This document shows positions 16,358-64,000 of a stretch of 64,000 nt of DNA, piece by piece. Below the pieces are notes generated by a model, which was given only the letters and a program-made list of their open reading frames with translations, made no database searches and was not told where the DNA came from. Source of the stretch: Moraxellaceae bacterium (GTDB lineage: Bacteria; Pseudomonadota; Gammaproteobacteria; Pseudomonadales; Moraxellaceae); contig JAJUIK010000010.1 of assembly GCA_029267635.1 (NCBI GenBank), positions 16,887 through 80,886 of the forward strand, in the 5' to 3' direction. Within the stretch, counting starts at the first letter, position 1; each line of letters opens with the position of its first letter. Made by a program: the position numbers and the translations under genes.

Positions 16358-17434
16358 TTAAATACGTTTTGGCAAATTACCCAACCAAGTCATTAAGTTG
16401 GTCGCGTCACTGTTACGTGCTTGCGTGGTGCTTGCACCAAGTAATACAACGATCGCTGGACGTGAATTCACGGTGGTATGCATCACCACACAACGTCCCG
16501 CTTCATTAATATAACCGGTTTTGGACAGATTGATATTCCAGCCGCCATTGCGCACCAGCGCATTGGTATTATTTGATTTCAATACGCGATAGCCAAGATT
16601 GAAGTCATAACTCGCGGTGGTTGAAAACTGGCGGATCAGCCCATATTGAGATGCTGAACTCACCAAAATTCCCAAGTCACGCGCTGAAGCGACATTACGT
16701 GGGTCCAAGCCAGTCGATTCATAAAATTTAGCAGAGGTCATGCCCAAAGCGCGTGCTTTGGCATTCATGGCTGAGACAAATGCGGTTCTTCCACCTGGAT
16801 AGGTACGCGCCAAGGCAGCTGCTGCAGGGTTTTCCGATTTCATCAAAGCAAACAGTAACGCTTCGGCACGGTTCATTTTATCGCCGACACGTAAGGTAGA
16901 ACTGGAGTTTTTACCTCCCGCCCCCGCGAAGTCTACTGCCTGCAGGGTAATTTCATCCGACATGTTTAAACGTGCGTCCGCAGTGACTACAGCGGTCATC
17001 AGTTTGGTAATCGACGCAATCGGCAGCGCAGTATTGGTATTTTTGCTATACAGCACCTCACCGGTTTGCGCATCAAGAACCAAGGCGGAACGGGCATTCA
17101 CCGCCGGCTGATTATGGTAGCTTGAGGTATCGCGAATCTGGAATTTTTTAGCGGGTGCAGATGCTGCTTTGACAGCGACCGCAGGTTGACTGCTATTGCG
17201 TAAGGTGGTACTGATTTTTGTTGAAGCTGGTGGCGTCATCTCTTCAGGTTCATCTAAAGCGACCTCACCATTTAAAAACTGGCTCGCCTCTTCCACTGAC
17301 CAGGTAAGAGAAGCCTGCCCATTCTCACTCGAAGCTGGATTCATGACGAGTTCTGCAAAGCTCGTTGAACTCAGGCTGAGCAGAATCGACATACTCAACA
17401 CATGCATTAAAGACTTTTTAGAAGTTTTCATCAT
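16358..17434 (-). CDS. pbpG: D-alanyl-D-alanine endopeptidase (PBP7/8-like, S11 family)
   Basis: LPIASITKLMTA (SxxK), S11 peptidase fold, signal peptide. Confidence 0.85.
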   Translation of the reverse strand: MMKTSKKSLMHVLSMSILLSLSSTSFAELVMNPASSENGQASLTWSVEEASQFLNGEVALDEPEEMTPPASTKISTTLRNSSQPAVAVKAASAPAKKFQIRDTSSYHNQPAVNARSALVLDAQTGEVLYSKNTNTALPIASITKLMTAVVTADARLNMSDEITLQAVDFAGAGGKNSSSTLRVGDKMNRAEALLFALMKSENPAAAALARTYPGGRTAFVSAMNAKARALGMTSAKFYESTGLDPRNVASARDLGILVSSASQYGLIRQFSTTASYDFNLGYRVLKSNNTNALVRNGGWNINLSKTGYINEAGRCVVMHTTVNSRPAIVVLLGASTTQARNSDATNLMTWLGNLPKRI

Positions 17435-52402: not shown

Positions 52403-53155
52403 ATGTCCCCGAAAAAGAAATCGCATTTACCCCATCTCTGGATAATTGCCGGTCTGATTCTGCTCTTGACCTGTGTGTCGATCTATATGTTTTTTGCAAC
52501 TACACGTCCGGTTTCCGCACAGGACTTTCCGGTCAAGGGCTTTGATGTCTCGCATCATCAAGGCGAGATCAACTGGCAAAAAATTTCTCCGCAGCAGTAT
52601 CAGTTTGTCTATCTCAAAGCCACTGAAGGGGGAGATTTTCAAGACCGAAAATTTCAGGATAATTGGCTGAAAGCTCGTGCACGTGGTCTGCATGTCGGTG
52701 CCTATCATTTTTATCGTTTATGTCGTGACGGCGCAGTACAAGCAGACAATTTTATTGCCACCGTTCCCAATAAAGCGGATGCGCTGGCCCCGGTGATTGA
52801 TCTGGAATATGACAATCACTGCATCGATACCTACAGCAAGGAACAGCTACTACAACACATCCAGACCATGCATGACCGGCTTTATCAGCATTATGGCAAA
52901 CCGCCGATTTTTTATGTGTCGCGCAATTTTTATAATATTGTCTTGATGGGGCACTTTGCCAAGACCCCGATCTGGCTACGCGAATATAAAGTCCAGCCCA
53001 AGCTAAAAGATGGCCGCGACTGGCTGTTCTGGCAATATACCGCTCAGGGAAAAATTGAGGGGATTAACACAACGGTGGATTTAAATGTCTATGCTGGCTC
53101 AGAACGCGACTGGCAGAATTATTTACAGCAACTGGGCATTCGAGCAGTACCGTGA
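52403..53155 (+). CDS. GH25 family lysozyme-like protein, N-terminally membrane anchored
   Basis: [15 protein letters not shown]...[17 protein letters not shown]...[11 protein letters not shown] helix at N-terminus. Confidence 0.88.
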
Positions 53156-54213
53156 TGCGCAAAATAATTCATATCGATATGGATGCCTTTTATGCGTCGG
53201 TCGAACTGCGTGAACGGCCAGAATTGCAAAAGCTTCCCGTGGTGATTGCCTCAGATCACCCTCGAGCAGTGGTAGCCGCTGCATCCTATCCTGCGCGGCA
53301 GTTTGGCCTACATTCGGCCATGCCCATGGCAACAGCCAGAAAGCGCTGTCCACAGGTGATTGTCATTCCGCCGGATTTTGACAAATACCGCAGCGTGTCT
53401 GCCCAGGTGCACCAGATTTTCCAGCACTATACCACCTTGATTGAACCAATTTCTCTAGATGAGGCCTATTTGGATGTGACGGAGAACCTGCAAGGTTTAT
53501 CTTCTGCAACAGCCGTGGCGCAGGCCATCCGTGCGGATATTCTGCAACACACCGGACTGACCGCCTCTGCAGGTGTGGCACCGAACAAGTTTCTCGCCAA
53601 AATTGCCTCAGACTGGCACAAACCGGATGGCTTGTGCGTGATCAAGCCACATCAAATACAGGGGTTTATTCAAAATTTACCATTAAAGAAAATCCCCGGG
53701 GTCGGTAAAGTCACCCAGGAAAAACTGGCAGCGCTACAACTGCATACTTTAGGTGATTTACAAAATATTCAGGAAGCCCTCCTGATTCAACAGTTTGGCA
53801 AGTACGGCCGGCGACTGTTTTTGTATGCGCAAGGCATTGATGAACGTCCGGTTGAGACACAGCGCGTACGGCAGCAAATCTCTAAAGAACTGACCTTTTC
53901 AAGCGACCTGACTTTGCTGCAATGTCATGCCGCCTGGCAACAGCTGGCCGAACAGGTCTGGAACAGTTTACAAAAACGGCAACTCAGTGCACGTGGCTTG
54001 CAACTCAAACTGAAAGATCCTCAGTTCCAGATTCGCCAGCATAGCAAAACCTATCAGCAACCCTTTCGCAATTTACAGGAATTGCAACAGGCTATTCCCC
54101 AACTGCTCAGCGAGATGCAGATTGCCAGCAGCCAGAAATTTCGCCTTGTTGGCGTTGGGCTAAACCAGCTGAATAGCGCTGCCGCCATTCAGCAGCTTGA
54201 TCTCGGTTTATGA
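53152..54213 (+). CDS. dinB: DNA polymerase IV
   Basis: [17 protein letters not shown]...[11 protein letters not shown]-family motifs; overlaps preceding stop by 4 bp. Confidence 0.95.
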
Positions 54214-54290
54214 TCCTGATCGATCATAAAAATAACGAAAAACAACACGGCAATTGACCTTTACCGAGCATTTTCATGTAGGCTATAGCA

Positions 54291-54405
54291 GCGATACATT
54301 ACCCCTGTATCGAGTTAGGTTAGAGAACCGCACTCTCGTTCTGCTAACCCTGTCCTGTAATCTGCGTGACGATCCAATCCGAAACATTGCAGGGCAACGT
54401 TTTTT
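54291..54405 (+). ncRNA. Candidate structured small RNA (three consecutive hairpins plus T-run)
   Basis: CGATACA/TGTATCG (54292-54312), GGTTAGAGAAC/GTTCTGCTAACC (54318-54349), CCTGTAAT/ATTGCAGG (54354-54393), T6 at 54400; promoter-like TTGACC-N19-TAGGCT at 54254-54284. Confidence 0.55.
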
Positions 54406-54574
54406 CTCTCGCAACATTCTCTTGTTCTCGCTCAATTCTGATATACCGCAGACTGGCAAAATGCTTTTGCAGCGCTGTCTTGTTGGCTTTACAATAAACT
54501 GCCGTAGAAGATGTCATTGATCATCTATACAAAAATCCTTCCAATTGACTGTTTTTGAGTACGAGATTCCGTTT

Positions 54575-54934
54575 ATGTCCATTCAACGTTTACATGTGGA
54601 AAAGCGCTTTTGTGAAGTGGCCATAGCAGGTAACCTGATTCATCTGGCAGGACAATTGGCCACCGATACTTCTGGAGATATTCGAGCCCAAACCCAGCAA
54701 ACCCTAGAAATCATTGACCGTTTACTGGCTGAAGCGGGCAGTGATAAACATCATATTTTATCGGTGATGATTTTCCTCAAAGATATTGAACAGGACTATC
54801 AGGCGATGAACGACATCTGGGATGCCTGGGTGGCAGATGGCGCTGCACCACCGCGTACCTGTGTCGAGGCCAAGCTCTATGCGCCTGAGGTCTTGGTCGA
54901 AATGACCGTAACTGCAGTCAAAGTATCTGCTTAA
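54575..54934 (+). CDS. RidA/YjgF family protein
   Basis: LIHLAGQLATDTSGDIRAQTQQTLEIIDRLLAEAGSDKHHILSVMIFLKDI...PPRTCVEAKL. Confidence 0.9.
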   Translation: MSIQRLHVEKRFCEVAIAGNLIHLAGQLATDTSGDIRAQTQQTLEIIDRLLAEAGSDKHHILSVMIFLKDIEQDYQAMNDIWDAWVADGAAPPRTCVEAKLYAPEVLVEMTVTAVKVSA

Positions 54935-63921: not shown

Positions 63922-64000
63922 GAGCTGGCGATGACTTACTCTCACATGGGCAACCCCACACTACCATCAGCGCGAAGAGGTTTCACTTCTGAGTTCGGGA
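63922..64000 (-). rRNA. rrf: 5S ribosomal RNA, 3' part (runs off window)
   Basis: Reverse complement reads TCCCGAACTCAGAAGTGAAACCTCTTCGCGCTGATGGTAGTGTGGGGTTGCCCATGTGAGAGTAAGTCATCGCCAGCTC. Confidence 0.95.

Follow-up and report, generated by a model that had tools for sequence, protein, structure and literature searches.

A genus-specific structured RNA downstream of dinB in Acinetobacter: a candidate shiA leader and small RNA

The dinB–ridA interval and its structured RNA

The window, that is, the whole stretch of DNA analysed here, comprises 64,000 nt of contig JAJUIK010000010.1 (GCA_029267635.1), positions 16,887 to 80,886. Between dinB and a ridA-like gene it contains a promoter-like element followed by three hairpins (H1, H2 and H3). 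The features are listed below, with the basis of each.

53155–54213, + strand: dinB (DNA polymerase IV), the conserved upstream neighbour (gene context)
54254–54284, + strand: promoter-like element, TTGACC (54254–54259), 19-nt spacer and TAGGCT (54279–54284) (sequence)
54291, + strand: putative transcription start, 7 nt past the −10 hexamer (predicted from the sequence)
54292–54312, + strand: H1, loop UUACCCC; the genus-conserved loop is UUAYCC (folding, alignment)
54318–54349, + strand: H2, loop CGCACUCUC; pairing is kept while the stem letters vary (folding, alignment)
54351–54396, + strand: H3, stem UGUCCUGUAAU/AUUGCAGGGCA (folding, alignment)
Within H3, + strand: inner helix C54365–G54381, G54366–C54380, G54368–C54379 and A54369–U54378 (folding)
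Within H3, + strand: near-invariant interior GCGUGACGAUCMAAUCCGA (alignment of homologs)
54386–54405, + strand: possible weak intrinsic terminator of the window lineage, the H3 3' arm and then T6 at 54400–54405 (sequence; weak or uncalled in scans)
54466–54495, + strand: promoter-like site TTTGCA-18-TACAAT of the ridA-like gene (promoter scan; about one such site is expected by chance)
54575–54934, + strand: ridA-like gene, Rid / Ribonuc_L-PSP family (gene context)

Every element on which the original prediction relied, from the promoter-like hexamers through the hairpins to the T6 run, is present letter for letter, and the three back-to-back hairpins that it described are recovered by folding, H3 being longer than it had supposed. 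RNAfold assigns −36 kcal/mol (z −3.7) to 54285–54410 with H1, H2 and H3 all present, and no dinucleotide shuffle of this segment folds equally well; in H3, an outer stem of 11 pairs encloses an inner helix of 4 pairs around GCGUGACGAUCCAAUCCGA. The Rid-family gene at 54575–54934 scores 53.8 bits against an NCBIfam cut-off of 106 (Rid family detoxifying hydrolase), and because this lies under the cut-off we regard the gene as a member of a divergent Rid subfamily.

Covariation is present in the stems, with 12 base pairs changed on both sides among 44 distinct homologs. In the same homologs 88% of the cells of the three-stem structure are paired, against 34–45% in slid controls, a percentage biased in favour of the structure, as the consensus was set by hand from these 44 sequences. 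H2 is the most variable hairpin in sequence and the best supported, six of its nine pairs having changed on both sides. An initial prediction from the complete alignment recovered H3 alone, because H1 and H2 misalign between lineages. The H3 stem cells across homologs hold 105 G-U against 3 A-C, a bias that places the RNA on the + strand, and the sense strand outfolds the antisense strand in 13 of 14 representatives. On this folding and comparative evidence, the locus is judged to encode a conserved structured RNA of the + strand. Two other candidates were rejected: a minus-strand RNA (CsrA-sponge-like, with GGA loops) is ruled out by the G-U bias and by loops without GGA, and a small ORF by single-base indels within the core.

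The proposed promoter TTGACC-N19-TAGGCT is strengthened by its −10 block, GTANNCTA, which is invariant or nearly so genus-wide (44 homologs), although a generic promoter scan made no call there; the scan misses it because of the 19-nt spacer. The −35 element has no genus-wide conservation. The RNA thus appears to have a promoter element of its own and is plausibly stand-alone in the window lineage. At the 3' end, the T6 run sits a few nucleotides past the H3 stem and no consensus terminator was called at it, so that the window terminator would be weak. An intrinsic terminator is clear only in part of one of the two lineage groups in which creB follows the RNA; it consists of AGGGCACTTCAAGTGTCCT and a U run, and its hairpin competes with the H3 3' arm. 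Most lineages have no intrinsic terminator within 95 nt. The T6-ended transcript of about 115 nt that had been predicted is therefore possible in the window lineage but is not a family trait, because intrinsic terminators, the T6 one included, are mostly absent from the homologs. Downstream, the promoter-like site at 54466–54495 would make the ridA-like gene a separate transcription unit. This promoter of the ridA-like gene is a consensus match only. The nearest relative (L268) shares its TTTACAAT block, but promoter scans made no call there or in L206, from the A. baumannii group.

Distribution across genomes

A covariance model matched the RNA strongly in 158 of 176 Acinetobacter genomes (one per species), with one match per genome except for two genomes with two. 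BLASTN of the window's own genome likewise returned one copy and no others. The three-stem model had no match in about 170 genomes from 15 other Moraxellaceae genera. The 48-nt core (H3) was matched in 73 of 119 Acinetobacter genomes, and the exact core pattern, run against 84,980 species genomes, returned 69 stretches, 68 of them from Acinetobacter. The RNA is Acinetobacter-specific. Named A. baumannii records carry it, one example with the order dinB, RNA, ridA-like gene. A mobile or phage origin was considered and rejected: viral contigs hold no exact match to the core, and the three 'plasmid' matches (NZ_CP064203.1, NZ_CP104448.1 and NZ_CP077849.1) are A. baumannii records of chromosome size that PLSDB lists as plasmids.

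Five related genomes (G091, G015, G054, G147 and G161) carry a low-scoring, divergent form, found at L042 12–138, L053 2657–2783, L061 3211–3337 and L271 1421–1547. In those examined, the H3 loop departs from that of the other homologs and looks like the usual loop in reverse complement, as though the segment between the stem arms had been turned round; the P value of this likeness ranges from about 0.001 to 0.4, depending on the reference. Two deep lineages retain the H3 stem and not its loop. In deep lineages (L255 and L257) the RNA is separated from the ridA-like gene by a gene for a small membrane protein, and the H3 stem is kept with a completely different loop.

Neighbouring genes and the pairing of the H1 loop

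In nearly all cases the RNA lies about 120–230 nt downstream of dinB. The gene that follows it is the transporter gene shiA in the A. lwoffii / A. schindleri group, creB (creBCD) in two groups, and the ridA-like gene in other lineages and in the window. The transporter is identified by NCBIfam as ShiA, shikimate transporter, with 736 bits against a cut-off of 538; the regulator in the creB groups is identified as CreB. The RNA stands directly upstream of 42 of 46 shiA orthologs, as counted by hand from two coordinate lists. It is present without shiA in about 117 genomes, where it adjoins creB or the ridA-like gene, each of which has its own promoter-like sequence in the gap after the RNA. The RNA is accordingly conserved independently of whether shiA, creB or a ridA-like gene is its neighbour. 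In several species shiA has visibly decayed behind the RNA, and the H3 interior is near-invariant even where shiA is decayed or gone; eight loci (L020, L024, L025, L027, L030, L031, L021 and L065) present shiA in successive stages of decay with the RNA intact. Two deep lineages, G097 and G014, carry two elements: a full H1-H2-H3 one that precedes another membrane-protein gene and the ridA-like gene, and a diverged one that precedes shiA elsewhere in the genome.

The H1 loop, UUAYCC, is complementary to CAUGG[A/G] located 8–16 nt past H3. In 41% of sequences the longest pairing between the loop and the downstream sequence is 6 or more; with shuffled downstream sequence the figure falls to 3%. 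Loop and partner covary: a loop U faces A in 16 cases and G in 4, and a loop C faces G in 11 and A in 2 (Fisher p 4e-4, kinship ignored), with changes of loop or partner in several separate groups. In the sequences of the shiA lineages, CAUGGA lies about 9–17 nt before the shiA start codon, and from this position the pairing would hide the shiA ribosome site. The H1 loop and CAUGG[A/G] are therefore well placed to form a pseudoknot, and in the shiA lineages it is likely to be one that blocks the ribosome site. Covarying pairing with a ribosome-binding region is confined to shiA and related lineages and does not extend to the window; in the window and in one creB group the CAUGG[A/G] partner is absent and the H1 loop is retained. 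In the A. baumannii group (L206 and relatives), CAUGG is kept 10 nt after H3, with no shiA there.

Proposed role, alternative readings and known RNAs

On balance, we lean towards a genus-specific structured RNA that would act as a cis leader of shiA and that elsewhere, the window included, would be a stand-alone and probably trans-acting sRNA. Its common core would be the promoter, the three hairpins and the conserved, mostly CC-containing loops. Where shiA lies downstream, the RNA would form the shiA 5' leader, with the H1 loop pairing to CAUGG[A/G] and blocking ribosome binding; H3, the 3' arm of which may also pair downstream, would be the likely switch. In the many lineages that lack shiA, those of the window and of A. 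baumannii among them, the RNA would be retained on its own as a small RNA whose CC-containing loops most likely act in trans on the ribosome-binding sites of other mRNAs. The argument for this second role is that several groups have lost shiA and kept the RNA. Points that weigh against the favoured reading are the want of a convincing AB5075 sRNA at the expected position, the scarcity of intrinsic terminators, the missing CAUGG[A/G] partner in the window and in one creB group, the lack of a long complementary target, the altered H3 loop of two deep lineages and the consensus-only promoter of the ridA-like gene. The original prediction had offered an independent sRNA or a structured leader as alternatives; each may hold in its own lineages, as a leader of shiA outside the window lineage and, plausibly, as a stand-alone RNA within it. 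The two settings, shiA leader and gene-free, would then form a rare natural series in which a cis leader becomes a trans-acting RNA. It is a doubtful extension of the same idea that a new riboswitch-like leader class for the uptake of shikimate or a related ring acid outlived shiA: once the gene had been lost, repeatedly, the leader would have been retained and have turned into a trans-acting sRNA in most of the genus, including A. baumannii.

Both halves of the favoured reading have counterparts among known RNAs. Leaders that pair with ribosome sites, such as translational riboswitches, resemble this RNA with its apparent promoter, its conserved structured core and, in the shiA lineages, the pairing of a loop with a transporter gene's start region; the RNA differs from them in that about 117 genomes keep it without the gene and in having no Rfam riboswitch match. 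Listeria LhrC and Staphylococcus RsaE are trans-acting sRNAs with C-rich loops. Aar is a trans-acting sRNA of Acinetobacter (PMC11472050). The dinB-adjacent RNA is not homologous to any of the three by the tests made, and resembles them in being small, in its presumed separate transcription and in its exposed CC loops, which might pair with ribosome sites.

A possible but less probable account is that the RNA acts only in cis, as a riboswitch-like attenuator leader of the downstream operon, whether shiA, the ridA-like gene or creBCD; H3 would then work as anti-terminator or anti-sequestor, and the off state would be the structure downstream. The tight association with shiA and the pseudoknot at its start region are consistent with this account, as are the diverged elements, resembling leaders, that G097 and G014 carry separately at shiA and, in one creB group, the competition of the AGGGCACTTCAAGTGTCCT terminator hairpin with the H3 3' arm, other terminators being few. 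However, the three downstream genes are unrelated, creB and the ridA-like gene have promoter-like sequences of their own, and the H3 interior stays near-invariant in genomes without shiA or with a decayed copy.

We judge it distinctly unlikely that the RNA is an ordinary stand-alone trans-acting sRNA behind which shiA lies through shared descent of the dinB-to-ridA order. Its fixed position after dinB, own promoter element, C-rich loops, retention without shiA and T6 run in the window would all suit such an sRNA, but the covariation of the H1 loop with the shiA start, the lack of terminators in most lineages, and the second element at shiA, off the main locus, in deep lineages would not. Very improbable is the proposal that the conservation reflects a DNA-level operator or a small coding region and not an RNA: the H3 loop of the five genomes in which it resembles the reverse complement of the usual one might be tolerated in a DNA site, whereas covarying variable stems, the G-U bias of the H3 stem and single-base indels inside the most conserved block argue against both.

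The C4 antisense RNA has three stem-loops and is released by RNase P from a longer precursor. The original prediction had suggested that the present RNA, likewise short and with three stem-loops, might belong to this multi-copy family (RF01695), many members of which are carried by Acinetobacter (PMC5320573). This membership is refuted, and its chance is practically nil: with at least 45 bits in the RF01695 covariance model as the threshold, no match was obtained at the locus even at E 10, in five homologs or in the window's own genome, while the positive control found 16–26 C4 copies in A. baumannii-like genomes, none of them at the dinB locus; furthermore, the RNA appears to have its own promoter, is not phage-linked and is single-copy, in contrast to the multi-copy, dispersed Acinetobacter group 1 sRNAs.

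For comparison with transcriptome data, 84 sRNAs have been described from RNA-seq in A. baumannii strain AB5075 (PMC5320573, Table 1). The position of our RNA there, estimated by collinearity with tmRNA and 6S RNA, is about 3.74–3.76 Mb on the + strand, and Table 1 has no convincing entry at that position. The nearest sRNA by position, ABUWs081, was not equated with it, being one of a four-copy group as against a single-copy RNA. Core oligonucleotide strings had no match in the searched literature. A search for long antisense targets of the H3 loop (20-mer, 3 mismatches) returned the RNA itself and one isolated match, with no recurring target.

The RNA matches no Rfam family: at E values up to 10 the locus gave just two matches, to viral or snoRNA families and no better than chance, and five homologs gave nothing over the RNA at E 1. 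A structured RNA absent from Rfam is thus present in about 90% of Acinetobacter species, clinical ones included. Across the whole window, the Rfam scan found no family at the RNA and returned only a TPP riboswitch (66 bits) at 1087–1208 and a partial 5S rRNA gene on the minus strand at 63923–64000.
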